Source: Companilactobacillus alimentarius DSM 20249 (GTDB taxonomy: Bacteria > Bacillota > Bacilli > Lactobacillales > Lactobacillaceae). From it: a stretch of DNA of 64,000 bases. Position numbers and translations under genes: made by a program. Where the stretch lies: contig NZ_CP018867.1 in assembly GCF_002849895.1 (NCBI RefSeq), forward strand, positions 2,269,866 through 2,333,865. Direction: 5' to 3'. Shown piece by piece: positions 2,831-64,000 of this stretch. A model generated the notes under the pieces. That model was not told the DNA's origin. It searched no databases and was given only the letters and a program-made list of their open reading frames with translations. The stretch's first letter is position 1, and every line of letters begins with the position of its first letter.

Positions 2831-2857
2831 TGAAAATAAAAGATGAAGGAGGAGTCA

Positions 2858-3622: not shown

Positions 3623-3626
3623 AATA

Positions 3627-3668: not shown

Positions 3669-3675
3669 AATAATT

Positions 3676-4585: not shown

Positions 4586-4614
4586 TTGAACCGCCTTAAA
4601 AAAAGTGGTATAAA
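4586..4614 (+). promoter_or_regulatory. Strong sigma-A promoter of the 70-aa gene
   Basis: TTGAAC (4586-4591), a 17-nt spacer and TATAAA (4609-4614) give a near-consensus promoter about 50 nt before the small gene at 4663. Confidence 0.75.
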
Positions 4615-4662
4615 TATCTGGTCGATATTAATGAGATGTTATTTTAATAGAAGGGGGTCGCA

Positions 4663-4875
4663 ATGATGATGCTATTTAGAAGTCATGGCGATTATGAAGT
4701 TACTTGTAATTTCTTGAGCAAAGAGGGACAGGAAGTTGCTAAAAAGCGTGTCTGTCATAATGTTTCTAAAAAGGAAGCACGTGACGGTATGAGAGACTAT
4801 ATTACTAATAGATTCTCTGATATTATAGATGTCGCTCATCCCATTAAAGTTGTTGCTAAGTTAACAGCTAAATAA
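4663..4875 (+). CDS. Small hypothetical protein (70 aa)
   Basis: A 70-residue, probably cytosolic protein that begins with three ATG codons in a row behind AGAAGGGGG. It contains two Cys residues (near 16 and 31) and basic patches, with no recognised family. A near-consensus promoter and a strong terminator frame it as a single-gene transcript, which supports it being real. I have no function to offer. Confidence 0.6.
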   Translation: MMMLFRSHGDYEVTCNFLSKEGQEVAKKRVCHNVSKKEARDGMRDYITNRFSDIIDVAHPIKVVAKLTAK

Positions 4876-4900
4876 GGTTTAAAATTAAATACTACTCAAG

Positions 4901-4939
4901 AACGAAGCCAATTCGTATAGTGAATTGGCTTCGTTTTGT
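4901..4939 (+). terminator. Terminator
   Basis: Perfect 14-bp arms AACGAAGCCAATTC and GAATTGGCTTCGTT surround a 7-nt loop and end in a short T-rich run. Confidence 0.85.
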
Positions 4940-5017
4940 AGTTAGAGAAAAAATAAGGGTCATCCTTTTTATATTTTGATAAATGATTGTTATGATAGAC
5001 GCGAGGAGGCAGATTAT

Positions 5018-5896: not shown

Positions 5897-5960
5897 TAAG
5901 AAGTGGCATTTGTGCTAAGATTAGTAGGTAATTTTATAATGAAAGTTGGAATGTCATAAT

Positions 5961-6635
5961 ATGGTAAAACTTGTTATGGTCAGACATGGTGAGAGCATAG
6001 CCAATGCATTGAATCAATACACTGGTTGGAATAATGTTGGTTTGACGCATGAGGGAAGAATCCAAGCACACGTAGCTGCAAAGAAATTGCGAGGTTTTGA
6101 ATTTGAGCATGTTCATACGTCAGTTTTAAAACGAGCAATTATCACAGCTTATATTATTCAAGATGATTTGAATCTTAATTATGTACCGATAACTAAAAGC
6201 TGGCGTTTAAACGAGCGTCACTATGGTGCTTTACGTGGTCAAAATAAAGATGCAACAAGAAGAGAATTTGGCGTTGAACAAGTTCATCAATGGAGAAGGA
6301 GTTTTTATTCAGTTCCTCCTAAGCTTGCTCAACCAGATCCTAATGTAGGTCCATATAAGTACTTTGACGCCAATATTATGCCTGTAGCGGAGAGTTTGTA
6401 TGAAGCCTATCAAAGAATTGTACCTTATTATGTTGATCATGTTGCACCGAGATTACTTGATAATAAAGACCAATTGATAGTTGCACATGGAAGTACGATT
6501 CGGGCTTTGATTAAATATATCGAAGGAATTAGCGATAAAGATATTGACGGAGTTGAAGTTGCTAACGGTACACCATTAATTTATGAATTTGATGAAAAAT
6601 TAAATATTATATCTTCAAATCGTCAAGATCAGTAG
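5961..6635 (+). CDS. gpmA: 2,3-bisphosphoglycerate-dependent phosphoglycerate mutase
   Basis: 224 residues. The start at ATG 5961 (M-V-K-L-V-M-V-R-H-G-E-S) matches the family N-terminus; a TTG at 5946 would lie at the transcription start of a TATAAT at 5935-5940. It carries the RHGES phosphohistidine motif near residue 8, N-E-R-H-Y-G-A-L near 87 and the second catalytic H in V-A-H-G-S-T-I-R. It interconverts 3- and 2-phosphoglycerate in glycolysis. The length is slightly short for GpmA (about 228-250) and some paralogues exist in lactobacilli, so this may be one of several mutases. Confidence 0.88.
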   Translation: MVKLVMVRHGESIANALNQYTGWNNVGLTHEGRIQAHVAAKKLRGFEFEHVHTSVLKRAIITAYIIQDDLNLNYVPITKSWRLNERHYGALRGQNKDATRREFGVEQVHQWRRSFYSVPPKLAQPDPNVGPYKYFDANIMPVAESLYEAYQRIVPYYVDHVAPRLLDNKDQLIVAHGSTIRALIKYIEGISDKDIDGVEVANGTPLIYEFDEKLNIISSNRQDQ

Positions 6636-6674
6636 TGTTTTCAAAGCGTAAAGGCTTTGAAAACATTTTTTTTT
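6636..6674 (+). terminator. Terminator after phosphoglycerate mutase
   Basis: The 12-bp arms TGTTTTCAAAGC and GCTTTGAAAACA, with a 6-nt loop, are followed by nine T's. Confidence 0.9.
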
Positions 6675-6747
6675 AGATTTATTTTTTTAAGAAAATGCTT
6701 TCTTTTTGAAGATTATGATGTAAAATATTTAAATGGTCTAGTCAGTT

Positions 6748-6762
6748 ACATGATTTTCATGT
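6748..6762. promoter_or_regulatory. Palindrome in the leader of the sugar transporter gene, possible operator
   Basis: ACATGA-TTT-TCATGT is a perfect 6+6 palindrome about 140 nt upstream of the transporter start. It lacks a T tail, so it is not a terminator. A repressor site is possible, but no known consensus was recognised. Confidence 0.25.
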
Positions 6763-6901
6763 CAATTAACGATCTAAAATAAAAGTAATAATCATTAAAT
6801 ATTTGAAATATGGCAAGAGTTAATATTGGTAATATTCTTTTAATGAAGAAATTTATTGCTTTTAAAATTATTATTATTTCTGTAAATTAGAGGGAGTTTT
6901 T

Positions 6902-7759
6902 ATGAATATTTTAATTGCACTAATACCAGCACTAGGTTGGGGCTTTATGCCAATCATCACTGGTAAAATTGGTGGATCACCAGCTAACCAAATGTTCGGA
7001 ATCGGTGCTGGAGCAACAATCGTCGGGTTCGTAGCTTATATAATTACGCAGCCAGCAGTAAGCACGACGGCCTTTTGGTTTTCAGTTCTTTGTGGAGCTT
7101 TGTGGACAATCGGTCAAATCGGTCAATTCATTTCTTTCAAGCGAATTGGCGTTTCAGGAACAGTTCCATTATCAACTGTTTTCCAATTGGTAGGTAATTC
7201 TATTATTGGAATGCTAATCTTTGGCGACTGGTCTGGAGTTCAATCGAAAGTAATTGGTATAATTGCTTTATTGATTGTCATTGTAGGAGCACTTTTGACC
7301 TCAGTGACTGATAGTACTGAAGGAAACAAGATGGAATTAAAAGATGCCATATTCCTATTGTGTACTACCGTGGGTTTTTGGATCTATTCATCATTTCCTA
7401 ATATGCCAATTGTTAAAGATCAAAGTGGTACTGGTATTTTTCTACCTGAGATGTTAGGGATTTTAGTTGGAGCAGTGATTTATGCCTTATTTACCGATGT
7501 CAAAGCCTTTAAGCAAAAAGAACATTATTTGAATATTTTTGCAGGTATTGCTTGGGGAATTGCTGCCTTTGCTTATATCTTTTCCGCTAAGGCTAACGGT
7601 AATACATCAGCTTTCATTTGGACACAACTAAACGTAGTGATTGGAACCTTTGGTGGAATCTTTATCTTAAATGAGAAGAAGAGTAGCCGAGAATTGAAAT
7701 TTACGATCCTAGGAATCGTTTTGATTGTTATTGGTAGTGTTGCAACCTCATTCGCATAA
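6902..7759 (+). CDS. GRP-family sugar uptake protein (GlcU/RbsU type)
   Basis: A 285-residue membrane protein with ten predicted hydrophobic segments, starting M-N-I-L-I-A-L-I-P-A-L-G-W-G at an ATG behind AGAGGGAG. It matches the glucose/ribose porter family (GlcU of Bacillus and Staphylococcus, RbsU), which imports sugar by proton symport without phosphorylation. N- and C-terminal halves look like an internal duplication, as expected. Glucose versus ribose cannot be told from sequence alone; no rbsD/rbsK neighbours are present, so glucose is slightly favoured. It is a single-gene transcript with a long AT-rich leader (6675-6901). Confidence 0.85.
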   Translation: MNILIALIPALGWGFMPIITGKIGGSPANQMFGIGAGATIVGFVAYIITQPAVSTTAFWFSVLCGALWTIGQIGQFISFKRIGVSGTVPLSTVFQLVGNSIIGMLIFGDWSGVQSKVIGIIALLIVIVGALLTSVTDSTEGNKMELKDAIFLLCTTVGFWIYSSFPNMPIVKDQSGTGIFLPEMLGILVGAVIYALFTDVKAFKQKEHYLNIFAGIAWGIAAFAYIFSAKANGNTSAFIWTQLNVVIGTFGGIFILNEKKSSRELKFTILGIVLIVIGSVATSFA

Positions 7760-7760
7760 A

Positions 7761-7804
7761 AATCCGTAGTAATTGATTTTTTCAATTACCACGGATTTTT
7801 TTTT
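7761..7804. terminator. Terminator, usable from both strands
   Basis: TCCGTAGTAATTG and CAATTACCACGGA pair with one mismatch. Nine T's follow on plus and five on minus, so it serves the transporter and probably the convergent small gene. Confidence 0.85.
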
Positions 7805-7809
7805 AATCT

Positions 7810-8097
7810 CTAAATATTGACTGCTTGAATAATATGATTTTTGAAATAGTTTGATTCGCCATAGCCACTATTGATAATGAAAATCTTTTTGCCTTTATAG
7901 ACGAAACTAATTCTCTCATAACCATAGAAATCATCGATCAATAAATCAGTGATTTGATTTATTGCAATTTCAATATGATGGGCAGGCTCTGCCCCATGAG
8001 AAATCGTTAGTGAAAGCAACCCCTTGTGAAAACGATAATCGGCATAACCACTGAATAAATGGGAGTTGGAATCAAGGATTTGAATGTAAGTAAACAT
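7810..8097 (-). CDS. Hypothetical protein (95 aa)
   Basis: A 95-residue soluble protein, M-F-T-Y-I-Q-I-L-D..., with alternating hydrophobic residues that suggest a beta-rich fold. No family was recognised. It begins 7 nt before the end of the shared terminator side and is convergent with the sugar transporter. The ribosome binding site (GAGAAGAGATC) is weak. About 130 nt of AT-rich DNA precedes it and may hold its promoter. The coding call rests on frame length and a shared terminator. Confidence 0.5.
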   Translation of the reverse strand: MFTYIQILDSNSHLFSGYADYRFHKGLLSLTISHGAEPAHHIEIAINQITDLLIDDFYGYERISFVYKGKKIFIINSGYGESNYFKNHIIQAVNI

Positions 8098-8240
8098 ATA
8101 TTATTGATCTCTTCTCTAATTTAAGTTAATCAAAATTTTTTGTCTTGATTAATTCAAATTATAATTAATAAATTTTATTAAACCAAAAATAAACTGTGAT
8201 TATGACAAAATGTCTGATCTTAATCAATAAATTTGACACC

Positions 8241-8279
8241 AAAAAAGCGCAATTGCTTTAATGCAATTGCGCTTTTTAG
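8241..8279 (-). terminator. Terminator of kup
   Basis: On the minus strand AAAAAGCGCAATTGC pairs perfectly with GCAATTGCGCTTTTT across a 6-nt loop, ending in a T run, directly after the kup stop codon. Confidence 0.9.
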
Positions 8280-10367
8280 TTATTCGTCCTCGTCGTCATC
8301 ATCAATCTCTTCATCAATCTTAATATCTTTGAGAGCTGAGCGGTCTTTTCTGACCAAACGCAAGCGATTGAGGGAGACTTTCCCAAGTACTAATGGAACA
8401 CGTTCTTCAATAACATCGCTGTATGAAAGACCGAACCAGTTAGCTGGAGAGATAAACTTTTGTAACAAGAGACGTAAGTGAATGATACTCTTCTTCACAT
8501 TACTGATCTTAGTATCAGGTGAGAGAACCTCTTTAATAATAACGAATGAGAAGTCCCCAACATCACGATCAGGAATAGTGGTATATTTCTGTGGTTGAGA
8601 TTTAATCTCGCCATTTGACATCATATCGTTGACGACCTGACGCAAGTAGACGTTAACCTTTTGATCTACTCTAAATCCTAGATAGAGTTGAACGCTGACC
8701 ATGTAGTCAGTGTCAAAAGTCTCAACACTGTAAGCTGCGGTATATGGTTCATCGGTAACGTTAACAGTGACAAACCAATAAACTTGAGCTCGTTTAGGAC
8801 GTTTATCAAGAATTGAATAGAGGATATTTTTCTTAATCCGGTATCCATCATGAACCTTAGTTAAATAAACTAGGTTAGTTGTATATAGTGGATAACTTGG
8901 ATCTTTTCTTAAATCATTTAATTGGTGCTTAAAAGCCAATAGGGAAGCAAAATGACTCCGATAGGTATTATCATCCTTGAGTCTTTCGCCGTATCTCCAA
9001 ACGAACATAACGGCAATTAAGACGGCCGCGATGAACATTGTAATGTAAGCACCGTGAATGAACTTGCTACTATTTGTAACGAAGAAAATACTTTCAATGA
9101 TAAAGAAGAAACTAACGATAACCGTTGTAAAAATACGATTGACCCGTTTCATCAATAACCATTGGTGAAGTAAGATCGTAGTCATTAACATGGTAATAGT
9201 AATTTCTAGACCATAAGCATTTGACATGTTTTCTGAAGTCTTGAAATAGAAAACAATAAATAAACAAACAATCCAAATTATTGAATTAACTGTAGGGATA
9301 TAAAGTTGTCCTTTAAAGTTAGTTGGATAATAAGTTTTTAATCTTGGGAACATTCTTAACTTAGTTGCTTCGGAAACTAGAGTGTATGAACCAGAAATCA
9401 AAGCCTGTGAAGCGATGATTGCGGCAAATGCTGAAAGTAAAATTCCAAAGAGTCTAAAGTCAGAAGGAATCGATTGATAAAATGGATTCATAGCTGAGCC
9501 CATTTTTTGTAATGAAGCATTGTCTTTAACACTAATGATCCAAGCTGCTTGACCTAAATAACTAAGTAGCAAGCAAACTTTAACAAAAGGCCAACTAGTA
9601 TAAATATTAGGTCGACCAACGTGTCCCATATCGGAATATAAGGCCTCAGCACCAGTAGTAGCTAAGAAGATACTACCTAGAATAAAGATTCCGCGAATAT
9701 TCATAGGACTTTGCAATAACTTAATTGCGTAGTAAGGGTTCAAAGCTCGAATAATCGTCCAGTCCGAAGAAAGATTGACGATTCCAATTAGACCCAGAAA
9801 GGCGAACCAAATCAACATTATTGGACCAAAGGCTCGACCGATCATCTGTGTACCAAATCGTTGAATAAAGAACAACGTTGATAAGATGATAATAGTTACA
9901 ATGATAACTTGATTCTGCGTACTAATAAGTACTGCGTTGTGAATCTGGATACCCTTGAGCCCTTCAATTGCCGCCGTAACGGTAACTGCGGGAGTCATCA
10001 TACCATCAGCTAGAAAGGTTGCCCCACCAATCATTGCTGGGATAATCAACCACTTAGCACGCTTTCTAACTAAAGTGTAGAGGGCAAATATACCACCCTC
10101 ACCGTTGTTATCGGCACGTAAAGCAATCAAAACATACTTAATTGTCGTTACCAAGGTCAGTGTCCAAAAGATCAAGGAAACACTACCCAAAATAAAATCA
10201 GTAGACATTTTTTCAAGTCCACCATTCCCAACCATCAAGGAATGCATAACATATAGAGGAGAGGTACCAATATCTCCATAAACGATTCCTAATGCAATTA
10301 GAAATCCTGCAATGCTTCTCTTTGAATGGGGGTTATTTTTCAATGAATTCAGTTGTGTCTTTTCCAT
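8280..10367 (-). CDS. kup: KUP-family potassium uptake protein
   Basis: 695 residues from the ATG at 10367, which has TTGGAG eight bases upstream; the frame stays open 22 codons further but without a site. The N-terminus has the KUP signature G-I-V-Y-G-D-I-G-T-S-P-L-Y-V near residue 35, followed by about twelve membrane helices and a cytoplasmic C-terminal domain. The protein ends in a strongly acidic tail (mostly Asp/Glu in the last 13 residues). KUP proteins import K+ with protons; in lactic acid bacteria they are c-di-AMP targets. It lies downstream of pepX on the same strand with a 118-nt gap and no clear terminator between, so partial cotranscription is possible. Confidence 0.93.
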   Translation of the reverse strand: MEKTQLNSLKNNPHSKRSIAGFLIALGIVYGDIGTSPLYVMHSLMVGNGGLEKMSTDFILGSVSLIFWTLTLVTTIKYVLIALRADNNGEGGIFALYTLVRKRAKWLIIPAMIGGATFLADGMMTPAVTVTAAIEGLKGIQIHNAVLISTQNQVIIVTIIILSTLFFIQRFGTQMIGRAFGPIMLIWFAFLGLIGIVNLSSDWTIIRALNPYYAIKLLQSPMNIRGIFILGSIFLATTGAEALYSDMGHVGRPNIYTSWPFVKVCLLLSYLGQAAWIISVKDNASLQKMGSAMNPFYQSIPSDFRLFGILLSAFAAIIASQALISGSYTLVSEATKLRMFPRLKTYYPTNFKGQLYIPTVNSIIWIVCLFIVFYFKTSENMSNAYGLEITITMLMTTILLHQWLLMKRVNRIFTTVIVSFFFIIESIFFVTNSSKFIHGAYITMFIAAVLIAVMFVWRYGERLKDDNTYRSHFASLLAFKHQLNDLRKDPSYPLYTTNLVYLTKVHDGYRIKKNILYSILDKRPKRAQVYWFVTVNVTDEPYTAAYSVETFDTDYMVSVQLYLGFRVDQKVNVYLRQVVNDMMSNGEIKSQPQKYTTIPDRDVGDFSFVIIKEVLSPDTKISNVKKSIIHLRLLLQKFISPANWFGLSYSDVIEERVPLVLGKVSLNRLRLVRKDRSALKDIKIDEEIDDDDEDE

Positions 10368-50836: not shown

Positions 50837-51430
50837 ATGAAAAAATATAGTGCAGGAATGGTATCACATGCGTTTTGGTTAAATGAGTTTTCTCAGTACA
50901 TTGATCTAGTAAATGATGGAATTTCAACGGAAGAAATAAAAAGAAAAAGCATTGAAGACAACTGTTTTAAACAGAGCACTAAAGCACGTGCTAAAGATAT
51001 TTTTAACATTTTAAATAGACGCGTTGGGAGTTTAGATGAAGATTATTTGGAGCTTTATCCTAGGTTAGATATAACTAGTCAAAAAATGGTTAACTTGATT
51101 ACAGTGATGAATAATAATCAATTATTTAAGGAATTTATGTATGAGACTTACCGTGATGAATTGATTGTTGGTGATGCAAAATTGTATGACTATGAGGTCG
51201 AAAGCTTTTTTAATCAAAAAATTCAGGAAAGTGAACAAATTGCTAATTGGACAGATGTAACAATCAAGAGACTTGCTGGCGTTTTTAAGACTTTTAATCG
51301 TGAAGCTGGATTATTAAAAAATCAAAGTAAGTATGACGATGTTATTCGGCCGGTTATTGATTATCGCTTGGAAGATTTATTGGTTACAAAAAAGAATAGC
51401 GAAATGCTAGCAATTCTTTTAGGGAGATAA
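50837..51430 (+). CDS. brxA: BREX protein BrxA (DUF1819)
   Basis: 197 residues, the family length. K-Y-S-A-G-M-V-S-H-A-F-W at the N-terminus is typical of DUF1819. BrxA is a small DNA-binding helical protein of type 1 BREX. It starts the brxA-brxB-brxC-pglX order, separated from brxB by 2 nt. The ribosome binding site (AAAGTGG) is modest. Confidence 0.92.
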   Translation: MKKYSAGMVSHAFWLNEFSQYIDLVNDGISTEEIKRKSIEDNCFKQSTKARAKDIFNILNRRVGSLDEDYLELYPRLDITSQKMVNLITVMNNNQLFKEFMYETYRDELIVGDAKLYDYEVESFFNQKIQESEQIANWTDVTIKRLAGVFKTFNREAGLLKNQSKYDDVIRPVIDYRLEDLLVTKKNSEMLAILLGR

Positions 51431-51432: not shown

Positions 51433-52005
51433 ATGAGTACAAAAACAAAATTAGATCATTTAAAAAACAAACTACAGAATAGCGATTTTCAAAATAATCA
51501 AGGTTTGTCCAACGAAGTTTCATATTATATTTTGGCCTATGATCCTAAAGATTTTCCAATAGTTAGACGAGAGTTGGATAGTATTAAACGTGAATTTAAT
51601 CAAGATACAGCAGATTATAAAATCAAGGAATTCAATGTTTATAAAATTATGTGGAAACTATTGGAGCAACGAGGCATAAAAAAAGCTGTTTTTGAAATGG
51701 AGAAAGATGATGGAATCGAATACTTGTCGGAACAAATTAATAATGTTTTGAGGATGACTAATTCTGATAATGAATTAGTTAAGTATATGGAGGATCATAT
51801 AAATCCTGACACAATTGTATTTCTAACAGGTATCGGCGAAATTTATCCATTAATAAGAGCACACAAAATATTAAATACAATGCATCAGATTATTTCAGAC
51901 ATTCCTGTGGTATTATTTTATCCAGGAAAATATGATAGTTTGAGCTTGAGTATGTTTGGAGAGTTAAAAGAAGATAATTATTATCGAGCATTTCAAATAA
52001 ATTAG
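51433..52005 (+). CDS. brxB: BREX protein BrxB (DUF1788)
   Basis: 190 residues. The pattern ...D-T-I-V-F-L-T-G-I-G-E-I-Y-P-L-I-R-A-H near residue 130 and the C-terminal P-V-V-L-F-Y-P-G-x-Y are typical of DUF1788. It is an essential BREX component of unknown activity. AAGGATG precedes the start. Confidence 0.92.
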   Translation: MSTKTKLDHLKNKLQNSDFQNNQGLSNEVSYYILAYDPKDFPIVRRELDSIKREFNQDTADYKIKEFNVYKIMWKLLEQRGIKKAVFEMEKDDGIEYLSEQINNVLRMTNSDNELVKYMEDHINPDTIVFLTGIGEIYPLIRAHKILNTMHQIISDIPVVLFYPGKYDSLSLSMFGELKEDNYYRAFQIN

Positions 52006-52017: not shown

Positions 52018-55000
52018 ATGATAATTAAAGATGTTTTTACTAAACCGATTGATCGTAATATCAAGGGTGTAATTACCATTGGTAATGAACGTGATAACAA
52101 TATTAAACAGGAATTGGAGGAGTACGTTGTTACTAGAGAATTAAAACATCACTTTAGTGATTTCTTTGATGCGTATACTTCTAGTATCGGTAAAAATACT
52201 ACAAATATGGGAGTGTGGATTTCCGGATTCTTTGGATCAGGTAAATCACATTTCTTAAAGATTTTGTCTTATTTGCTCGAAAACCGTGAAGTAAAGGGTA
52301 AAAAGGCAATCGATTATTTCACGGATGATAAAAAAATAACTGACATTACAACAATTCGTAATATGCAAAAGGCTGTTGAAATCGATAATGAAGTTATGTT
52401 GTTCAATATTGATTCCAAAGCTCGTGACAATAATAAAGAGCAAAAGAACGCCATTCTAAATGTTTTTCTACAAGTATTTAATGAACGTTTAGGATTATCT
52501 GGGGAGAGTTTTTGGTTAGCCGATTTAGAAAGAAAATTAATTAAAGATAATCGCTATGAAGATTTCAAAGAAGAATTTAAGAATACTAATGATGAGCATT
52601 TGGATTGGATAGGGGCAAGAAACGGTTTTGCTTTTATGAAGGGTACAATTAAGGAAACCTTAGTTAATATCGGCTATATGTCGGATGCTGATGCACAAGG
52701 ATTCGTTGATAATTTGTCTTCAAGCTATTCCATTAGTGTAGAAGAATTTGCTAAGATGGTTAATTCATACATTAAAACTAAACCTGAAAATTACCATATG
52801 ATTTTCTTAGTTGATGAAATTGGTCAATATATCGGTGATTCTCAGCAAAGAATGTTGAACTTGCAAAGTATTGTTGAGGATTTAGGAACTTATACTCAAG
52901 GAAAAGCTTGGGTCATTGTTACTAGCCAACAGGCAATTGATCAAGTTACCGATAATATTAATGGACAAGATTTTTCAAAAATTCAAGGACGTTTCCACAC
53001 GAGAATTTCCATGTCTTCTGCTAACGTTGATGAAGTTATTAAAAAACGTTTGTTAACAAAAACTTCTGAAAGTGAAGCTTTACTAGAAGACACATATTCA
53101 CAAGAACAACACTCGATTAATAATTTGATTGATTTTGATGGGGATGTTGAACGAAAGAAGTATGATAATGGAAAAGTCTTCTCTGAGGTTTATCCATTTG
53201 TTCCTTATCAATTTAATTTATTACAGGAAACCTTAACTGCTATTCGTGAAAACGGGTCTGATGGGAAACATTTAGCTGAGGGTGAACGTTCGATGCTGGC
53301 TGTTTTTCAAGAATCAGCCCAATATTTTGAAAAGCATGATACAAGGTCGTTGATTCCATATAGTATTTTCTTTAGAGGGTTGGAACAGTTTCTAGATCAT
53401 ACTCATGCCATTGTTATTCAGCATGCAATCGATAATGAAAAGATCAATCCTAATAACGACCCTAAGCCTTTTGCCGTGCAAGTCTTAGAAACGTTATTTA
53501 TGGTTAAGTATGTTAAGAATTTTGATGCAACATTAAACAATGTTACTACATTAATGATCGATTCAATTGATACCGATCGAATTGAATTAGAAAAGAAAAT
53601 CAAGAAAGCATTAGATATTTTAATCAATCAAGAATTAGTTGAAAAAACAACGCATGGCTATGAATTTTTAACGGATGCAGAACAAGATATTAGTAAGCAA
53701 ATTAATAGACAAAGTGTAGACGTTGCAGAGATTTCAAGAAGCATTGGAGATCAATTATTTGCTAATTCTAATATTTCCAAAAAATTTACTTATCCTAAAT
53801 TAAATAATCAATACACATTCTCATTTAATCCTTATGTTGATGGTTATCCGGTTGCCTCAACTAATAATGAAATGAGTATAAGAGTTAATACTCCTGAAAG
53901 TGATTATCATAGGGATAAAGCGGAATTGGCCCGAATTTCCATTGATCCGGGGCAGCCACCAATTATCATTGATATGCCAGAGGAGAATTCCTATATTGAT
54001 GATATGCGTCAATCTATTAAAATTAGAAAATTTGCTTATGGATTCAATAACCAGCCAAGTGATGAACGTTCTAAGCAAATTATCGAAATTAAAAAAATGG
54101 AACGTAATACATTAAATGATAATGCTTCTAAAGAATTAATGGCTGCTTTACAAAATGCGGATATTTATATTTCTGGTAAAAAATTAGAGAATACCGGTAA
54201 GGATTTCTTTAAACGTCTCAATGAAGCCGAAATTGCTTTGGTTGATGAGGTATATCGTAATCTTAGTTATATTGAAGTAACTAAGAATGAAAAGGACATT
54301 GTTTCTCTATTTAAGAACAATGATTTGAATGTTAAAACTAATGAAAATGAACAAGCTACACAGGCAATTCTGGATAGCATTTTACGTTCATTTGACGGTC
54401 ACAATAAGATTTCTTACAAGTCAATTTTAGATAAGTTCAGTCGGATTCCATTCGGTTATAACGATATAGATATTAAGTGGCTTGTTGCTGAATTATTTGC
54501 TGATGCAAAGATAAAACTTTACGTTAATAATGCTTCGGTAAACTTCAATCCTAATTCAGATCCATTGGAAATGGCTCGTTACTTTACTAAAAAATCCTTT
54601 ATTGACAAAGTTCAATTTGAGCCTCGTCGTGAGATTTCAGTTTCAAAGAAAAAGGATTTACAAGAGATTGCTGATGAGGTCTTCAATAAAGTAACCTTTA
54701 CCAATTATGAAGACGATACTGTGATGAATGAATTAAAAGATAAAGTTCAAATGGACTTGAGAAATTTGAGATTCTTCAAGGAAATGCCTAATTATTATCC
54801 AGGTAAAAATTGGATCGAGCAAGGAATTAATATGCTTGAGAAATTAGACAATATCGTTGACGTTGATAATTTTTATGATTATGCAAGTAAAGAAAAAGAT
54901 GATCTGCTTGATTGGCATGATGATATGGAAGATTATGGAATTCTTGAATTTTATCATAGCGATAGTCAACAAAATATTTGGAAAGAAGCACATCAGAAAC

Positions 55001-55641
55001 TTGATATTTATGATAATTCCAAGGATTTTATAACTGGTAAAGAATTGCCCAAAGTGGTAAATAGTATTACAGAAATTATCCAATCTAATAAACCCCAAGG
55101 AAGAGTTCATGAACTAAAACAACTTAGTGATGATTTTAAAGATGAATATAATAAGGAATTTGATCGTAAATTGGATGATATTAATGTTCAAATTGAGGTT
55201 GAACGATCAAATACACTTGATTATATTGCTAAAACTGATTGCTTGGATAAATTAGAAAGTGAAGTAAATCACCGGTTTGATGAATTTATTAAAGAAGCTG
55301 AGGAATCAGTTAACTTGGATAAATTGGTTGTTGTTAAGGATAAGGTATTGCCAGTTGGTTCAAGATTTAGAGAAAGAGCTGATAAAATTGTCGAGGAAAG
55401 AAATTCTTCAAAAGAGCCAAGTCCGAATCTAAATGGCGGTAATAGTGGAGATGATTCCATACACGGTGAACCTAAAAAATCTGTTTCACAACCAATACAC
55501 ATTAATATCAGACAATTACAAATTCCAAAGAATTGGTCGTTGAAAGATGAAGATGACGTAGATGCTGAGTTGAAACTTTTAAAGAGAGCTTTAATAGAAG
55601 AATTAAAGAGAAATAATAACAATATTAATTTGAGTCTTTAA
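52018..55641 (+). CDS. brxC: BREX ATPase BrxC
   Basis: 1207 residues, full length and intact. Walker A G-F-F-G-S-G-K-S-H lies at residues 70-78 and a Walker B-like I-F-L-V-D-E-I-G-Q near 262. It is the large P-loop protein of type 1 BREX (DUF6079 / PglY-like). The long C-terminal half is helical and charged. It lies 13 nt after brxB and 17 nt before pglX. Confidence 0.95.
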   Translation: MIIKDVFTKPIDRNIKGVITIGNERDNNIKQELEEYVVTRELKHHFSDFFDAYTSSIGKNTTNMGVWISGFFGSGKSHFLKILSYLLENREVKGKKAIDYFTDDKKITDITTIRNMQKAVEIDNEVMLFNIDSKARDNNKEQKNAILNVFLQVFNERLGLSGESFWLADLERKLIKDNRYEDFKEEFKNTNDEHLDWIGARNGFAFMKGTIKETLVNIGYMSDADAQGFVDNLSSSYSISVEEFAKMVNSYIKTKPENYHMIFLVDEIGQYIGDSQQRMLNLQSIVEDLGTYTQGKAWVIVTSQQAIDQVTDNINGQDFSKIQGRFHTRISMSSANVDEVIKKRLLTKTSESEALLEDTYSQEQHSINNLIDFDGDVERKKYDNGKVFSEVYPFVPYQFNLLQETLTAIRENGSDGKHLAEGERSMLAVFQESAQYFEKHDTRSLIPYSIFFRGLEQFLDHTHAIVIQHAIDNEKINPNNDPKPFAVQVLETLFMVKYVKNFDATLNNVTTLMIDSIDTDRIELEKKIKKALDILINQELVEKTTHGYEFLTDAEQDISKQINRQSVDVAEISRSIGDQLFANSNISKKFTYPKLNNQYTFSFNPYVDGYPVASTNNEMSIRVNTPESDYHRDKAELARISIDPGQPPIIIDMPEENSYIDDMRQSIKIRKFAYGFNNQPSDERSKQIIEIKKMERNTLNDNASKELMAALQNADIYISGKKLENTGKDFFKRLNEAEIALVDEVYRNLSYIEVTKNEKDIVSLFKNNDLNVKTNENEQATQAILDSILRSFDGHNKISYKSILDKFSRIPFGYNDIDIKWLVAELFADAKIKLYVNNASVNFNPNSDPLEMARYFTKKSFIDKVQFEPRREISVSKKKDLQEIADEVFNKVTFTNYEDDTVMNELKDKVQMDLRNLRFFKEMPNYYPGKNWIEQGINMLEKLDNIVDVDNFYDYASKEKDDLLDWHDDMEDYGILEFYHSDSQQNIWKEAHQKLDIYDNSKDFITGKELPKVVNSITEIIQSNKPQGRVHELKQLSDDFKDEYNKEFDRKLDDINVQIEVERSNTLDYIAKTDCLDKLESEVNHRFDEFIKEAEESVNLDKLVVVKDKVLPVGSRFRERADKIVEERNSSKEPSPNLNGGNSGDDSIHGEPKKSVSQPIHINIRQLQIPKNWSLKDEDDVDAELKLLKRALIEELKRNNNNINLSL

Positions 55642-56247
55642 ATTTAGAAGGAAAATACATGGATAAAAACGCGATAAAAAAGTTTGCTATCAATGCCCGT
55701 AATGAGCTACGTGCAATGGTCAAACAAAAAGCCAATGTAATAGGAATTACTGAGAATGGAATTGAAGATAAATTATCAATTTCTACTAAAGAAATCGAAT
55801 ATTATATTGATGATAAAGTTCCATTAATTGGAAAAGATATTCAAAAGCGAAAAAACTAGTTGATGAATTGAATACTCGTGCCAAAAAAAGCGACTATAAG
55901 ACAGCCTTCAATGACTTAGTTGAGGAAGTGGCTTACACATGGTTTAACAGAATTGTGGCCATTCGTTTCATGGAAGTTAACGATTATTTACCAAGTAGAA
56001 CCAGAGTCTTATCAAGTACTCAGAATCGTAATGAACCAGATATTATGATTGATCCGTTATCTCTGGAAGATGATTTAGGGGCTTTTTCAGACGATGACCG
56101 TCAGTTGATTAGTGATGCTTGGGATACTGAAGATCCCACGACTATGGATAAGTTGTACAAGATGTTGTTTATCAAACAAGCCAATGCTTTGAACAAGAAC
56201 TTGCCGTATCTATTTGAAAGAACAAATGATTATGCAGAATTATTGTT

Positions 56248-56375
56248 CACTCCAAGCTATAATCACGGTGTGATAAAAGATATTGTTACTGAGATTCCAG
56301 AGAGTAATTTTGATGTTGAACAAGGCGGTCAGGTTGAGATTATTGGATGGATTTATCAGTATTACAATACGGAAC
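56248..56375 (+). repeat. Inverted repeat A, left copy (128 bp)
   Basis: Read on the opposite strand, 62337-62464 is identical by eye over all 128 bases. It lies in the coding frame (T-P-S-Y-N-H-G ... W-I-Y-Q-Y-Y-N-T) before the catalytic core. Confidence 0.95.
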
Positions 56376-57527
56376 TGCATGACGAAGTTGTAAACATTAG
56401 TGGCGGTGCCATTCAAAAAAGTGATATCCCAGCCGCAACCCAGTTATTTACTACTGATTGGGTCGTTAGATATATGGTCGACAATTCACTTGGTAAATAC
56501 TGGCTTGAAAGACATCCAAATAGTTCATTAAAGAAAGAACTCAAATATCTTTTACCAGAAAAATTAAATATTGTGCCAAATGATAAGGATATTCAAGATA
56601 TCAAATTTGTTGATAATGCTATGGGGTCCGGACATATTTTAATTTATGCATTCGATGTTCTTATGAAGATTTATCAAGAAGAAGGATATTCAGCCAGGGA
56701 TGCAGCAGTTGATATTATTACTAAAAATCTATATGGATTAGAAATCGATCAACTAGCAACATTTTCTTTAATGATGAAGGCTAGACAGTACAATCGTCGA
56801 ATTTTAAGAAAATCAGATATTAAACCTAATTTACATGTTTTTGTCGAAACAAATAACATATCTTCAGAATTTTTAGAATTAATACCTGAAGATTCTCAAA
56901 AAGATGTACAAGAGCTAGTTAATACATTTAAGAATGCCAAAGAATTAGGTTCTATTACTAAACTTGAAAGACAATATAATTATGAGAAATTACGTTTAGA
57001 CGTAAATAATATTAAAGATCCTGGAATTGATTTATACGGCATTCAGTCTTCCAAAGAATTAGTATTAAAGGTGTTAGATTTAGCTGAAGTTATTAGTGCC
57101 AAATATGATGTTGTAGTCACTAATCCTCCATACTTGAATAAAATGGACAAAAATCTCAAGAAATACGTTAAAAAATATTATTCAGATTATTCTGGTGATC
57201 TTTTCTCGGTCTTTATTTATAACAATATAAGTTGGTTAAAGCCAGGTGGATATTCAGCCTATATGACACCATTTGTTTGGATGTTTATCAAAACATATGA
57301 AAAATTGAGAACATTTATCGTTGAAAACAAAAAAATATCTAGCTTGATTCAAATGGAATATTCAGCATTTGAAGAAGCTACTGTGCCAATTAATACCTTT
57401 GTGATTAAGAATTCTAAGCCTAATGATGAAGGAATTTATTTAAAGCTTTCTGCTTTTAAAGGTGGCATGGAAGTTCAAAATCAAAAGGTTCTAGAAGCAA
57501 TTGGGAATCCAGACTGTGGATATATTT

Positions 57528-57866
57528 ATCGAACTAATCAAGCGAACTTTAGTAAGATTCCTGGTAGTCCTATTGCTTATTGGGCTAGTGAAAATTTGAT
57601 TAAGGATTTCGAAAAAGGAACTAGAATGGACGAATTAGTTGACCCAAGACAGGGATTAGCAACAGCTGATAACAATAGATTCTTACGAATGTGGTATGAG
57701 GTTATAAATAGCAATATTAGTTTTAATTCTCATTCTATAAAAGAATCATTAGAATCTAATAAAAAATGGTTTCCATATAATAAAGGTGGATCTTATAGAA
57801 AATGGTATGGAAATTATGATTATGTAGTTAATTGGGAAAAAGATGGCTATGAAGTAAGAAATTTCA
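57528..57866 (+). repeat. Inverted repeat B, left copy (339 bp)
   Basis: It matches 60778-61116 on the other strand with only a handful of substitutions and no indels. It encodes R-T-N-Q-A-N-F-S-K-I-P-G ... V-N-W-E. Confidence 0.95.
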
Positions 57867-58176
57867 CTGATGCTAATGGAAAAGTTAGATCAAGACCCCA
57901 AAATACTGATTATTACTTTCATGAAGCGATAACATGGTCTAAATACTCTGGCAATTTAGTATTAGATAGGATTTCAGGATCATTCATGATACCGGGTATG
58001 CTGCATTTTCTAAAAACATAAAACTTATTAATGATGTAGGATTCTTAAATACTAAGTAGGCAGTACATATTAAATTTTTAAATCCAACGATAAATGCCAA
58101 ATTGGTGATTTTTAAATTTCCAGTTTTAAAATGTTGAACAGTATATCAAAGAATGATAACATAAAATTCCAAAGAA

Positions 58177-58248
58177 GATTGGGATTCAGCGAAATCTCAT
58201 GGGATTTCAAACAACATCCACTCTTAAATCACATCGCTGATGATAAGC
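58177..58248 (+). repeat. Inverted repeat C, left copy (72 bp)
   Basis: It matches 60391-60462 on the other strand with one mismatch seen. It encodes ...E-I-S-W-D-F-K-Q-H-P-L-L-N-H-I-A-D-D-K. Confidence 0.93.
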
Positions 58249-59168
58249 GAACAGAAGTAAATGGTAGTTTACAAAATGCGTTTAGTATTTGGAAATCAGA
58301 GGCTCAAGATAGATTTGACCAATTAAAGTATAATGAAGAAGAATTAAATAAGATTTTTATTGATCTATATGGTTTACAAGATGAGTTGACTCCGGATGTT
58401 GCCGATAAAGATGTTTCTGTACGTTTGGCTAACGAAAAACGTGATATTAAATCTTTCTTGTCTTATTTTGTTGGCGTAGTATTTGGCAGGTATTCTCTTG
58501 ATACTGAGGGTCTTGCTTTTGCTGGGGGACAATGGGATAGCTCTAAATACGATTCCTTCGTGCCAAATGACGATAATATCTTGATGTTAAATGATAAGAA
58601 ATATTTTGATGATAAGCGCGATATCATGAGTCGTTTGAAAGAATTTTTGACTGTAACTTTTGGTGCAGATAATGTAAAAGATAACCTTGAGTATATTGCT
58701 TCAGTTGTTGGTAAAAAAGCAGATAATACTGAGGATTCCATTAGAAGGTACTTTGTTGAAGACTTCTTTAAAGATCATAAGAAGATATATCAAAAACGTC
58801 CAATCTATTGGGAATTTTCAAGTGGTCGAGCTAATGGATTCAAAGCTTTAATGTACTTACATAGATACAACGAAAATGAATTAGCAATGATTAGAACTAA
58901 TTATTTGCATCCATTGCAGGGTAGATATGAAACCAATCTTAAACAATTGGATCAATTATTAGAATCTGAAACCGTTGCTAAAGAGAAGAAGAAACTTGAA
59001 AAAGAAATTAATCATGTAAATAAGCAACTATCTGAAATTAAGAAGTATGATCCGTTAATTCAACATATTGCTAATGAGAAAATATCGTTAGACTTGGATG
59101 ATGGTGTAGTGGTTAATTATGAAAAACTTCAAAATGGTGAGAAAATTTTAACTAATTATAAGTAGATA

Positions 59169-59199
59169 AAAGGGCTTTTCCAATCGGAAAAGCCTTTTT
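59169..59199. terminator. Terminator between pglX and the recombinase
   Basis: AGGGCTTTTCC-AATC-GGAAAAGCCTTTTT, directly after the pglX stop. A-rich 5' side allows use from both strands. Confidence 0.85.
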
Positions 59200-59200
59200 A

Positions 59201-59220
59201 TGTGCCAAGAAATGTGCCAA
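59201..59220. repeat. TGTGCCAA direct repeats next to the recombinase
   Basis: TGTGCCAA occurs twice (59201-59208 and 59213-59220), 12 nt apart, right after the terminator. A third copy in opposite orientation lies at 60345-60352 just upstream of the recombinase start. They may be arm-type binding sites for its N-terminal domain; this is inference. Confidence 0.5.
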
Positions 59221-60308
59221 CTATTTTATGGCATTATCTAGAATAGAAATTATCTTATCTTGATCCTGAGATTGCAATTCTCTAATTATATGTAAGTAAG
59301 TTGATTGAGTTGTTGTGATGTTACTATGACCCAATCTTCTCGAAACGGAAAGTACGCTAACTCCTTTATAGAGTAAGATTGAAGCATGCGTGTGACGCAA
59401 TCCATGAAATGTTATACGGGGAATATTAAGTGATTCAAGTTTATTAGTTAGTGACTTATTTATTTCAGCACTTACCAAAATATGATCTTTCTTATTCATA
59501 AATATTGGCTGGTTGTTTTTAAATTCATGAAGTTTCAGGTATTCTTTTAATTTAAAAACTGTCTGTTCATCGATAGCAATTTTTCTGATAGAGGATTTCG
59601 TTTTAGTCTTCATAAAGCCAGTTTTATATTTATAATCCCAAGTCTTATTTACGCTAATATATCCGGATTTGAAGTCAAAGTCTTTAGTTGTCAAACCCAC
59701 AACTTCGCCATATCTCATCCCAGTCACAGCCGCAATAAAAATAATCATTTCATCTATTTTGTTGGTATTAAGATTCTTTATTAAAATTGACCAATTTTTA
59801 TAACTCAAGACTTTATTAATTTTTGGTCGTTCTATTCCAGTTATAACGGCTTTTCTAGTTGGATCCGCCATAATTATTTTTTCATCTAAAGCCTCAAGCA
59901 AACAAGCCCTTATTTGTTTATGAAAGCATGATACAGTGCGCTTTGCGTGTGTTTTAGCAAATTGGTTAATGCCTTCTTGATAACGTAGTTTAGTTAAATC
60001 CTTTAGTTTTAAATCGCCAAATATTTCATAAATGTGTTGAGCAGTATTTTGATATTTATTGAAAGTGATTTTAGACACTACATTTTTCTTAAAAACATTG
60101 ATCCAACGTTTGTAGTAACTGACCAAGGGTTCTTCACTTGATTTTGCACTGGATAGATTAGGGTATTCAATTTGTATCTGACTAGCTGCTAGAATAGCTT
60201 CTGATTGTGTTCAAAGCCCGATTTACGTAGTTTCTTGTATTTACCAAATTGATCTTTGTATGATATTTCATATTGCCAAACGTGTCCTCTTTTACGATAA
60301 CTGACCAT
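59221..60308 (-). pseudogene. Phage-type tyrosine recombinase/integrase in the pglX locus, one frameshift
   Basis: The 59221-60126 frame holds the core and catalytic domains: G-M-R-Y-G-E (Arg), H-G-L-R-H-T-H-A-S (HxxR) and S-T-Y-L-H-I (Tyr). The true start is the ATG at 60308 behind GGAGGG; this N-terminus (M-V-S-Y-R-K-R-G-H-V-W-Q-Y-E) is an AP2-like arm-binding domain. One lost A near 60210 (GAAC for GAAAC) separates the two parts; restoring it gives a protein of about 362 residues. It is flanked by both pglX copies and has no phage genes around it, so its job is probably inversion of pglX cassettes. Confidence 0.85.
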
Positions 60309-60390
60309 TATTTGAGCCCTCCAAACGGAACAGTTGTCACAATTTTGGCACATACGTAACTATATTCCAATAATTTTGCATTAAATAATT

Positions 60391-60462
60391 GCTTATCATC
60401 AGCGATGTGATTTAAGAGTGGATGTTGTTTGAAATCCCATGAGATTTCGATGAATCCCAATC
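60391..60462 (-). repeat. Inverted repeat C, right copy
   Basis: Partner of 58177-58248; one mismatch seen. Confidence 0.93.
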
Positions 60463-60777
60463 GTTTTTAGATATTAATAGATTATCTACATTGAATCCTT
60501 TATAGATTTTAAAACTGGAATTTAAAAATTCCCAATCTGCAATGTATCGTTGGTTTAAAATTTTAAGATGTAATTCCTACTGACGAATTCATTAATCCAA
60601 TAAGTCAAACAGTTTTATTTTTATTAGAAAATGCACATACCCCGTAACATCATTTATGCTTCCCGGAAATCTGTATCTAATACTAAAGTTACCACAGTAA
60701 TATCAGACCATGTTATCGCTTCATGAAAGTAATAATCAGGATTTCTTGTTACGGACCTTATCTTTCCATTGGACCAT

Positions 60778-61116
60778 TGAAATTTCTCACTTCATAACCA
60801 TCATTTTCCCAATTAACTACATAATCGTAATTTCCATACCATTTTCTATAAGATCCACCTTTATTATATGGAAACCATTTTTTATTAGATTCTAATGATT
60901 CTTTTATAGAATGAGAATTAAAACTAATATTGCTATTTATAACCTCATACCACATTCGTAAGAATCTATTGTTATCAGCTGTTGCTAATCCCTGTCTTGG
61001 GTCAACTAATTCGTCCATTCTAGTTCCCTTTTCGAAATCCTTAATCAAGTTTTCACTAGCCCAATAAGCAATAGGACTACCAGGGATCTTACTAAAGTTC
61101 GCTTGATTAGTTCGAT
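60778..61116 (-). repeat. Inverted repeat B, right copy
   Basis: Partner of 57528-57866; same length, a few substitutions. Confidence 0.95.
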
Positions 61117-62336
61117 TATAACGATTACCAGGTATTGGAAGTTTAGAGGGAATCTTACCCGAAGTATCTGCAGTTTTGATTTGATGATAGGTCCCAATGA
61201 AATTAGGTAAGTTCATATTTCTTACAATCGTGACTGCCGTACCAAATGCAATACCCATAACATTATTTTCCATATGCATGAGGTTAGAAATTGTAAAGTT
61301 ACTTAAAAGATGTGTCCTCATTTTTTCAAAACTTGATAGAAACATCCAAGATTGCATAGTAACCATGCAATTATATCCACCAGGAATCATTGATTTATTC
61401 CATCGTTCGATGAACATTGAAAATAAATCAGACTTTGCATCTGGATAGTTAGTTTTTGCAAAATTACCGAGAATTTTATTCATTCTTGACGAACCCATAT
61501 ATGGTGGATTGGTAATGATAATGTGATATTGTGCAGATAAGATTTTAGAAACACTCAATAATTGCTTCAATGAATTAATTAAAGGAATCAATTCGAATGA
61601 CATTTGTTCTTGATTTAGATTTGACAATTTTTGATATAAATCATCATAATCAATATCAAGCCCCATAATTAGTGATCCTAAATCATTTCCATTATGGAAT
61701 AAATTAATAACATTATTAAATAAGGTTACATCATGTTCATTTAATTCATTAAACAAAAGTTCAAAATCATCACTGTTAAATTCATTCGTTTCAGGAATGT
61801 CATAAATATTCAATTTGATATTACTTGTCAAAGCACGTCTATTGTATTGACGCAATTTCATGTATACAGCAAAATATGATAACTGGAATGCTCTAGTGTC
61901 TATATCTAATCCAAATAAATTATTGGTTACAATTGATTTTGAAGCCTCTCTTTCAGAATATCCTTCTGATTGATAAATCTGCATTAATAAATCAAATGCA
62001 TAAACCAGTATGTGTCCAGACCCCATCGAAGGATCAATCATTTTTAAATCTGTTATTTCAAGATTACTTAGACTTTTGTCAACATCTTTTAATGACACAA
62101 TAACATTCTCTGGTTGCTGAGCATCTTTCATGTAATATTGCCAATTGAAGTCACTTGCAATTTGTTCTTCTAAACGAGTGTCATTTTTTTCAAGTAAAGA
62201 TTTAATCCATATTTTCCCCAATGAATTTTGGACCATATATTTAACAATCCAGTCAGGTGTAAAAATCTGTGTCACTGAAGCAATTTCTGTATCTTTAAAT
62301 TATGTGATTTTGGAGAAGAAATTGCTTTTTCTTTTG

Positions 62337-62464
62337 GTTCCGTATTGTAATACTGATAAATCCATCCAATAATCTCAACCTGACCGCCTTGTTCAACATC
62401 AAAATTACTCTCTGGAATCTCAGTAACAATATCTTTTATCACACCGTGATTATAGCTTGGAGTG
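62337..62464 (-). repeat. Inverted repeat A, right copy
   Basis: Partner of 56248-56375; identical by eye. Confidence 0.95.
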
Positions 62465-62557
62465 GACGAAAATTGCCAAACAAAAATGTTATAGGTAGCA
62501 GTAAATATATTATTCAAACGGATAGTGGCCATCGATTCTTATCCAGTTGATTTACAA

Positions 62558-62685
62558 ATGACTGAAAAAGAGAGGGCTACATTAGAATTAAAAAAGCATT
62601 AAAAGATATTCCTGTTAAGGATTTAAATACACCACAAGAAATTTCTGATTTTTTTGAGGATGGAAATAATGATAATCAAAACTAA
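62558..62685 (+). pseudogene. Probable antitoxin of a PemK/MazF-type pair, frameshifted
   Basis: From ATG 62558 the frame reads M-T-E-K-E-R-A-T-L-E-L-K-K and breaks. Adding one A to the run at about 62590-62595 continues A-L-K-D-I-P-V-K-D-L-N-T-P-Q-E-I-S-D-F-F-E-D-G to TAA at 62685. A small acidic protein overlapping a toxin-like gene by 17 nt is the usual antitoxin arrangement. The frame may begin further upstream. Confidence 0.5.
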
Positions 62686-62873
62686 TGATATCTTTATTAT
62701 GTTCCGCTTATGGATAAAAAGGCGGTAAACATCGTCCTGTGTTGATAATAGATAGTGATGAAAAAAACATTATTTTTTCAAAATAACAACAAATACGAAG
62801 ATAAATCTTCACAAATTAAAAACAATTACTATCCAATTGTGGGATGGTTTAATCAGAATTACTTGTTTTTTTA
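62669..62873 (+). pseudogene. PemK/MazF-like toxin, several frameshifts
   Basis: Starts M-I-I-K-T-N-D-I-F; after adding single bases to homopolymers the frames join as ...V-P-L-M-D-K-K-G-G-K-H-R-P-V-L-I-I-D, then ...K-I-T-T-K-Y-E-D-K, then ...Y-P-I-V-G-W-F-N-Q-N-Y-L. The G-G-K-x-R-P-V-L-I-I segment is characteristic of PemK/MazF-type ribonuclease toxins. Not functional as sequenced. Confidence 0.55.
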
Positions 62874-62966
62874 ACTTTTGGCGTCTAAAGACTTGAGTTT
62901 ATTTAATAATGTATATCGATAATGTATTATTAATATTGCGAGTAATAATTGAAAAGAGGCACTAGC

Positions 62967-64000
62967 ATGGCTGATGTCAATAATGAAAAATATTAGATAA
63001 TTTAAAAAGAAAATTTAATCATGGTAGTCACATTATTTTTTGGTATGACGATAATGGTGAATTTACGGATAAAATAATGAAATCACAAATGGATTAACAG
63101 GAATTGCACAAGTAGTTGTTCTACATCTGGGAAACAACTTAAGTTGAAATTAAAGTTCTTATCAGCTTCGGAAGAAGAAAATTTTTTGATTTATCTCCTG
63201 AGAAACAACCCGTTCTTGAAGATAATCATTTACGAGATATTATTTTATATTCAGATACATTTACTGCTGACGCACAAGAAATGATTAGACGTGATTTGGG
63301 ATTACCGGAGAAAATGGGATCCTTTGTTAAAGAACATTCTAAGTTTTTTGGTAGTAAGGCTCGTCGGAAGAGTTTTAGCAAATATGATCCGAAGAGTTTT
63401 GATAATAATCCTGAACTAGCAATTCTAGCTACTTTGGTTAATTCTCAACGGGTTTTGGTCAGTTACTTTGATATTTTAAGAATTGTTTGTGTGCAGGAGT
63501 TCATAATGATAGTTATTTAAATGAATTTGCCAAATATGGTGTGTTAGATGCATTTTGGGATAATGCGCGAAAAATTTTTGGTTATGAAGAGAAACAACCT
63601 AGTTTAATAAGACTAGCCACTTCATTATTTTTACTGAAACTTTCCATCAAATGGATAAGGAAGTACCTAAGCAAGTTAATGTTTACGATTTGATGACTAA
63701 ATATCCGAACGTAAGTACCTTTGTGAATCAATTTAGTAACTTGAATTTTAATGGTGATGATAAATTTGAAGAAGTAGCAGATGAAGTTTGGAGATTTGTA
63801 GATGGTAATACCTTATTCAAGAATATCAAAGTGGATGATTTTGCTAAATCTTCAGTATTTTCTATTTTTGATAGATGGATTCTTTTATGGGAACAAGGAC
63901 GTTTAAAATTATCGGATTTTGACAGTCAAATTAATGGTGAATCTTTTCCAGAGGTAGTGAAACATCGACTGGAAATGCACTATGGTAGTAAATATAAAGT
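62967..64000 (+). pseudogene. pglZ: BREX phosphatase-like protein PglZ, 5' part, frameshifted and cut by window end
   Basis: Reads M-A-D-V-N-N-E-K, then in other frames L-D-N-L-K-R-K-F-N-H-G, F-W-Y-D-D-N-G-E-F-T-D, N-E-I-T-N-G-L-T-G-I-A-Q-V-V-V-L, L-S-P-E-K-Q-P-V-L-E-D, and from about 63630 one open frame to the end of the window. Breaks occur near 62990, 63080, 63140, 63195, 63485 and 63630, apparently each a one-base slip. N-terminal W-Y-D-D-x-x-x-F is typical of PglZ. AAAGAGG precedes the ATG. PglZ follows pglX in type 1 BREX, so the identity is safe even though the frame is broken. Confidence 0.8.

Follow-up and report, generated by a model that had tools for sequence, protein, structure and literature searches.

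Anatomy of the pglX locus

The window analysed here is the whole 64,000-nucleotide (nt) stretch that closes contig NZ_CP018867.1 of Companilactobacillus alimentarius DSM 20249, and our subject within it is pglX, the methyltransferase gene of a bacteriophage exclusion (BREX) cluster, together with a second, opposite-strand pglX copy and a tyrosine recombinase gene that lies between the two. An earlier reading of the bare sequence (the original prediction) had proposed that three inverted repeat pairs, in the same order in both copies and with the recombinase in the middle, form a shufflon. Self-comparison of the window places all three pairs where they were expected: A (138 nt, 98% identical), B (342 nt, 98%) and C (88 nt, 92%) are nested and enclose the recombinase. 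The second copy was also said to lack its 5' end, and indeed it has no N-terminus, the first stretch it holds in common with the main copy being repeat A (main codons 196-239). The features are listed below, with PglX divided into an N-terminal domain (NTD), a methyltransferase domain (MTD), a target recognition domain (TRD) and a C-terminal domain (CTD).

55659..59165, + strand: pglX main copy with the domain order NTD-MTD-TRD-CTD; its frame is broken as assembled (both open pieces match PADLOC PglX; the region occurs again at the contig start)
56238..56375, + strand: repeat A, spanning the NTD/MTD junction (self-comparison of the window)
56242..56260, + strand: site A, ATTG.TTCACTCC.AAGCTAT
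56376..57527, + strand: block X1 (MTD), in the active position
57528..57869, + strand: repeat B, the MTD/TRD hinge and proximal TRD
57528..57546, + strand: site B, ATCG.AACTAATC.AAGCGAA
57870..58160, + strand: block Y1 (distal TRD), its consensus mixed with Y2 in the window
58161..58248, + strand: repeat C, start of the CTD
58233..58251, + strand: site C, ATCG.CTGATGAT.AAGCGAA
58252..59165, + strand: block Z (PglX CTD), cut off from pglX in OFF states
59221..60352, - strand: tyrosine recombinase, 377 amino acids (aa), open in the contig-start copy; in the window its frame is broken in the N-terminal part, and its upper coordinate is approximate (the start copy has Phage_integrase, Arm-DNA-bind_4 and SAM-like domains)
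60388..60406, - strand: site C', ATCG.CTGATGAT.AAGCAAT
60391..60478, - strand: repeat C'
60479..60774, - strand: block Y2 (distal TRD), silent
60775..61116, - strand: repeat B'
61098..61116, - strand: site B', ATCG.AACTAATC.AAGCGAA
61117..62336, - strand: block X2 (second-class MTD, NPPY present), silent
62337..62474, - strand: repeat A'
62452..62470, - strand: site A', TTCG.TCCACTCC.AAGCTAT

The blocks between the repeats were predicted to differ, and for A-B they do, since only one 153-nt stretch at 71% is recognisable between the copies. The B-C block, on the other hand, is a diverged homologue (66 nt at 82% in the window; 504 nt at 88%, B included, in the contig-start copy) and belongs to the TRD, so that part of the claim had to be amended. 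Repeat B owes its length in this locus to a first half that both TRDs have in common. The neighbouring tyrosine recombinase has its catalytic domain: its open frame in the window (59221-60126) matches PF00589 at an E-value of 5e-25, and its solved structural relatives are phage integrases, an ‘Int protein’, Xer proteins and IntI4.

The domain boundaries were taken from E. coli BrxX, for which the consulted portion of PMC11842806 gives an NTD at residues 1-210, an MTD at 211-650, a TRD at 651-837, a CTD at 838-1205 and a hinge at 638-675. When P0002, a relative of the window PglX, is aligned to BrxX, site A falls at about residues 183-190, so that repeat A crosses from the NTD into the MTD. Site B maps to the hinge (about 642-648) and site C to the CTD, roughly 35 residues past its start (about 872). 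Block X therefore corresponds to the MTD, and the stretch from the core of B to C holds the TRD. According to the same portion of that paper, positions 1-4 of the BrxX motif are read by residues of the TRD, and its last base pair is set by an MTD loop (587-601). Since both act on the motif there, the MTD and TRD cassettes could, by analogy, both affect methylation specificity here.

Sites and exchanged blocks in related loci

P0002 has matches at an E-value of 1e-30 or better in 53 of 397 Lactobacillaceae genomes, and we examined 60 loci: those 53 genomes contributed 58 stretches, and G016 and G019 one each. The three-pair layout, which the original prediction had singled out, is not peculiar to this genome: 28 loci are ON (N-X-B-Z, recombinase, silent copy) and two are OFF, with the C-terminal block inverted. 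A further 13 have no second copy on the stretch, 13 are partial and four are variant. Two of the loci with no second copy (L123 and L126) are contig-broken, with their other pieces on other contigs, which leaves 11 single-copy controls. In the four variant loci (L107, L113, L116 and L129) the PglX C-terminal block has the orientation of pglX but sits on the far side of the recombinase, and the pglX match ends near residue 870; these perhaps encode a split PglX. Among the 27 loci with a silent X block, repeat A measures 128-150 nt at 94-100% identity in 25, the exceptions being L115 (260 nt, 97%) and L111 (579 nt, 83%).

Synonymous codon positions single out the same three places. Across 24 of the 28 ON loci (L096, L111 and L119 were left out for broken or short frames, and L136 as a near-duplicate of L131), the top 25 of 1161 8-codon windows of synonymous identity begin only at codons 190-196, 623-632 and 870-877. 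In the 11 controls, A ranks 93 and C ranks 138 of 1143. All three places resemble a 19-nt pattern, ATYG-N8-ARNCKAW; L139 and L145 each match it exactly six times in 17.5 kb, at A, B, C and their three partners and nowhere else, and the control loci have two matches in total, none within pglX.

Partner sites were compared in 28 of the 30 ON/OFF loci (all but L136 and L104). In all 82 inverted pairs (26/26 A, 28/28 B and 28/28 C) the two partners agree exactly over positions 7-13, and mismatches between them occur at positions 1, 3-6 and 14-19. All eight spacer nucleotides match in 23/26 A, 25/28 B and 26/28 C pairs, and the spacers themselves vary between loci, with four forms for A, six for B and 12 for C, so that the 12 C spacers covary with their partners. 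Within a locus, the 7-mers of A, B and C differ at three or more of seven positions in 28/28 cases. Pooled over the loci that passed the score filter (25 and 27, respectively), partner identity falls to background a few nucleotides to the left of site A and to the right of site C. The unit kept identical between partners is, as these alignments have it, a 7-bp stretch within a 19-nt site and not the length of the repeat. Strand exchange within a 7-bp overlap would produce such a pattern, and it is the one expected of a single tyrosine recombinase acting on three mutually incompatible overlaps. The view that the repeats reflect mere protein conservation is ruled out by the synonymous-site and partner-identity tests, with the qualification that conservation at B is in part a matter of protein coding.

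Several details count against so clean a picture. Site B is high in the single-copy controls too (rank 10 of 1143), so protein coding explains part of its conservation, and locating sites by their best match to the consensus favours similarity between partners. The strict pattern fits 103 of 166 sites and has no match in L119; the window holds eight strict matches, four at sites and four elsewhere, and a shuffled L096 sequence yields 1.2. Sites A and A' of the window differ at positions 1, 3 and 6, the last of which lies in the spacer, and not at 7-13.

The products that inversion would give are found among relatives. X1 is paired with X2 in 24 of the 30 ON/OFF loci, with X1 active in 14 and X2 in 10; two loci are X2/X2, one is X1/X1, and in three no silent X was seen (L099, L119 and L104, the last cut by a contig end), near-duplicates L131 and L136 both being counted. 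The clearest case joins an L. brevis plasmid (pl12108-2) and an L. plantarum K25 plasmid, in which X1 (98.1% identical) and X2 with part of the TRD (90.9%) occupy swapped positions, between outer flanks at 99.0-99.5% and a CTD and recombinase at 94.3%. In L108 and L130 (98% in each of N, BrxC and recombinase), the X1 that is active in one locus is the silent X1 of the other (97%), and L113/L129 (81/80%) and L132/L137 (71/77%) record reciprocal but older X exchanges. The TRD, which is also what is exchanged in phase-variable hsdS-type systems and which the BrxX alignment puts between B and C, can move alone: the active TRD of one of L140 and L142 is the silent TRD of the other (95%), with X unchanged (93%, 92%). 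In L106 and L128, X (96%) and TRD (99%) moved together. The OFF arrangement occurs in L104 and L109, to which we add P0004 (906 aa), whose terminal tail closely resembles that encoded past C' in the window. A different tail is common to P0017 and P0025, and P0021, also devoid of a CTD, has yet another ending.

Proteins tell the same story as loci. The 29 L. plantarum-type PglX sequences share a single N class and, except for three that lack it, a single C-terminal class; between these, three X classes (32-41% identical) combine with nine TRD classes, and all four combinations of X1/X2 with TRD4/TRD7 are present. B and Y classes always change together in these proteins (all 14 table rows), and the rhamnosus/paracasei-type table has one B class that occurs with either of two Y classes. 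A stand-alone B-C block, which we had considered, was replaced on the strength of the L. plantarum-type classes by a TRD running from the B core to C.

Other comparisons are less favourable to switching. The two L. brevis plasmid loci are identical, the two L. plantarum plasmid loci have the same arrangement, and between L. brevis and SRCM103426 only X2 matches, inverted. The exchanges in L108/L130 (X2 blocks without a match), L140/L142 (no TRD match in the reverse direction) and L106/L128 (counterpart without a match) run in one direction, and only two of the 30 ON/OFF loci are OFF. In the orientation comparison proposed with the original prediction, arrangements do differ among related genomes, and the expected four full-length versions and eight arrangements follow from the anatomy, four of the eight being truncated; relatives display exchange of X, of the TRD alone and of both, as well as OFF. 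Site anatomy, partner identity, block exchange and OFF arrangements can thus be read directly from comparison of the relatives' sequences. We consider the shuffler real and common to many relatives, and its proposed mechanism well supported by such comparison.

The locus in Companilactobacillus alimentarius and competing explanations

In the window, pglX is preceded by brxA, brxB and brxC and followed by the start of pglZ, which runs off the end (Pfam, PADLOC).

50837..51430, + strand: brxA (Pfam BrxA, 4.6e-46)
51433..52005, + strand: brxB (Pfam BrxB, 1.3e-40)
52018..55641, + strand: brxC (Pfam BrxC domains; PADLOC BrxC, 1251.7 bits)
62968..64000, + strand: pglZ 5' part, frame-broken, continuing at the contig start to L096:10548 (PADLOC PglZ on 63651-63998; Pfam PglZ on L096:9352-10545)

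The type 1 gene set brxA, brxB, brxC, pglX and pglZ is therefore present as a cluster, with pglX and pglZ frame-broken as assembled. The portion of PMC12707154 consulted calls brxL characteristic of BREX type 1, and BrxL (PF13337) has no match in the whole genome; the system is best described as BREX-1-like without BrxL.

The end of the window is the end of the contig, and positions 54988-64000 recur at the contig start (the copy designated L096, positions 1-9070) at 99.1% identity. This 9,070-bp repeat is apparently an unmerged terminal overlap of a circular chromosome, of low consensus quality, that coincides with the invertible locus. The circumstance bears on the possibility that the locus is a dead remnant in this strain, with real frame breaks and nothing that switches. 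We had held that view of a dead pseudogene as our main one, dropped it after the contig-start copy was found, and keep it as an alternative that we judge unlikely. It can appeal to pglX being interrupted in both contig-end copies, with one break near 55,860 common to the two, which may be a real lesion, as well as to the lack of a BrxL family match and to pglZ being split in the start copy too, just past the overlap. The breaks noticed, however, fall inside the unmerged overlap or at most about 300 nt outside it. We count 62 difference events between the two copies, 32 of them in the main B-C block (57938-58187) and 17 in the silent one (60449-60776); the remaining 13 are single-base length differences, and substitution-typed events are confined to the two Y blocks. 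Moreover, for each of brxA, brxB, brxC, the recombinase and the second pglX copy there is at least one open version, at the contig start in the case of the recombinase (377 aa) and the silent pglX copy (661 aa), and BrxL is missing as well from 20 of 40 other pglX-bearing genomes searched, including all nine of one genus. BREX clusters lacking BrxL seem common in some lactobacillar genera. Much of the frame disruption we attribute to contig-end consensus error, though a real lesion may remain. Since pglX itself is not open in this assembly, the originally predicted ability of the locus to rebuild PglX rests on intact relatives.

A run of A lies at about 55845-55860 of the window, near the frame loss of pglX in both copies; it marks a slippage site or, alternatively, a systematic homopolymer error, and the consulted part of PMC6326788 mentions a homopolymer tract in brxX. 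Between the silent pglX copy and pglZ (62540-62860) are short open fragments that, by reading alone, look like remnants of a small toxin-antitoxin pair. The same genome has a 68-kb contig (C2, L097) that over its first 20 kb looks like lactobacillar plasmids carrying genes for a MobQ relaxase and a replication initiator.

Support for switching in this strain is circumstantial. We took as diagnostic the columns at which the contig-start copies of main and silent Y differ. When the main Y of the window is set against its contig-start copy, 16 of 21 substituted diagnostic columns carry the silent-copy letter (P 7e-5 against one third), and other alignment settings give 17/22 and 16/25. Such a mosaic fits reads of B+C-inverted cells having been mixed into the consensus. 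A random break would place a contig overlap over this locus with a chance of roughly 0.7%, as estimated from the lengths, and an overlap there fits a structurally mixed culture. Weighed against this, silent Y has no such bias (3/6, 2/5 and 3/6 by alignment setting), 23 of 305 non-diagnostic columns of main Y differ as well, the mosaic could come from cross-mapping during polishing, and switching in this strain was not seen directly.

It is also conceivable that general homologous recombination or gene conversion between the copies exchanges the blocks and that the recombinase is incidental, which we regard as decidedly unlikely. Repeats A and B are long enough here (138 and 342 nt) to invite this explanation, and one-directional block moves could be conversions. 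For pneumococcus there is disagreement over what the neighbouring recombinase does, one study (PMC6620402, consulted in part) reporting switching that is independent of any known site-specific recombinase. Yet the stretch shared at B is only 22-32 nt in L119, L128 and L109, and that at C is 11-19 nt in loci such as L098, L128, L131, L138, L143 and L145. Nor would homologous recombination account for identity stopping at the same site coordinates in pooled loci, for a 7-bp stretch that is invariant between partners while flanking site positions are not, or for top synonymous conservation at the three sites; gene conversion fails at the OFF loci, which require inversion. Horizontal replacement between strains, with no inversion within a cell, is a very improbable source of the X and TRD combinations: one-directional moves fit it, and nine TRD classes in 29 L. 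plantarum-type proteins exceed one genome's two copies, so cassette import must also occur, but the reciprocal active/silent exchange between closely related plasmid loci and the inverted C-terminal blocks are what inversion predicts.

Proposed mechanism and known systems

We consider it very probable that the locus is a three-site, recombinase-driven inversion switch built into pglX. Most likely, the recombinase encoded between the copies recognises the 19-nt site in both copies of each repeat. Partners share the 7-bp overlap (positions 7-13) and the overlaps of A, B and C differ, so that A would recombine only with A', B with B' and C with C', each event inverting everything between the partner sites. 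The sites lie close to where NTD meets MTD, MTD meets TRD and TRD meets CTD, and combined events would therefore swap X1 and X2 (the catalytic domain), the two recognition domains, or both at once, giving four full-length forms of PglX. In four further arrangements, pglX would run into a short tail instead of the C-terminal domain (OFF). This recombinase would be the driver of inversion, inversion would take place in this strain, and methylation specificity and phage defence would change with it.

We are evenly divided over a more ambitious proposal, that the locus embodies a natural orthogonal-site code. One recombinase would act on three similar-armed sites whose distinct 7-bp overlaps alone separate the reactions, so that the MTD and TRD of a single-chain methyltransferase shuffle independently; a clone would then hold up to four specificities and an off state, with the end of the motif set by the catalytic cassette and its first bases by the recognition cassette. 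Should the overlap code prove right, the locus would be a natural example of the orthogonal-site principle, which is known from engineered lox variants. More broadly, the locus suggests, site by site, how a phage-defence methyltransferase may change its self mark without mutation, and exact junctions are now provided for food lactobacilli. Swapped catalytic and recognition domains also make it testable whether the MTD cassette sets part of the BREX motif, as the loop of BrxX suggests in the portion of PMC11842806 cited above.

Elements of this design have precedents. Both pglX inversion and three-repeat hsdS inversion are already known, the former having reportedly been described in lactobacilli by Goldfarb et al. 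in 2015. In the shufflon of plasmid R64, the Rci recombinase exchanges alternative C-termini at sites that share one core. As in R64, a single tyrosine recombinase and several inversions would here give alternative proteins; in contrast to R64, internal domains would be exchanged, at three sites with different overlaps. We know of no earlier case of a two-domain shuffle or of an overlap code.

A three-site pglX shuffle appears in no title or displayed abstract start among the open-licence papers listed, which is weak evidence of novelty, and the consulted parts of PMC10164179, PMC9427043 and PMC12324116 hold nothing on pglX inversion. The closest lactobacillar case is L. rhamnosus, for which the available portion of PMC7513527 describes a partial PglX alongside a full-length one, with an integrase between them, much as here; the three-site layout, the independent exchange of MTD and TRD, the site sequence and the overlap code are not in that portion of its description.

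The nearest parallel in layout is the pneumococcal cod locus, also Spn556II (SpnIII), where hsdS inversion with PsrA is an established three-repeat system and where, in the excerpts consulted (PMC4948785, PMC7096588), IR1-like sequences are needed in the longer repeats. That system likewise has three inverted repeat pairs (15, 298 and 85 bp), eight DNA arrangements and a tyrosine recombinase in the locus. What is shuffled there is hsdS, a separate specificity subunit, among three genes. Here, the target would be a single-chain BREX methyltransferase; its catalytic domain would serve as a cassette too, a single silent copy is present, and OFF would be among the products.

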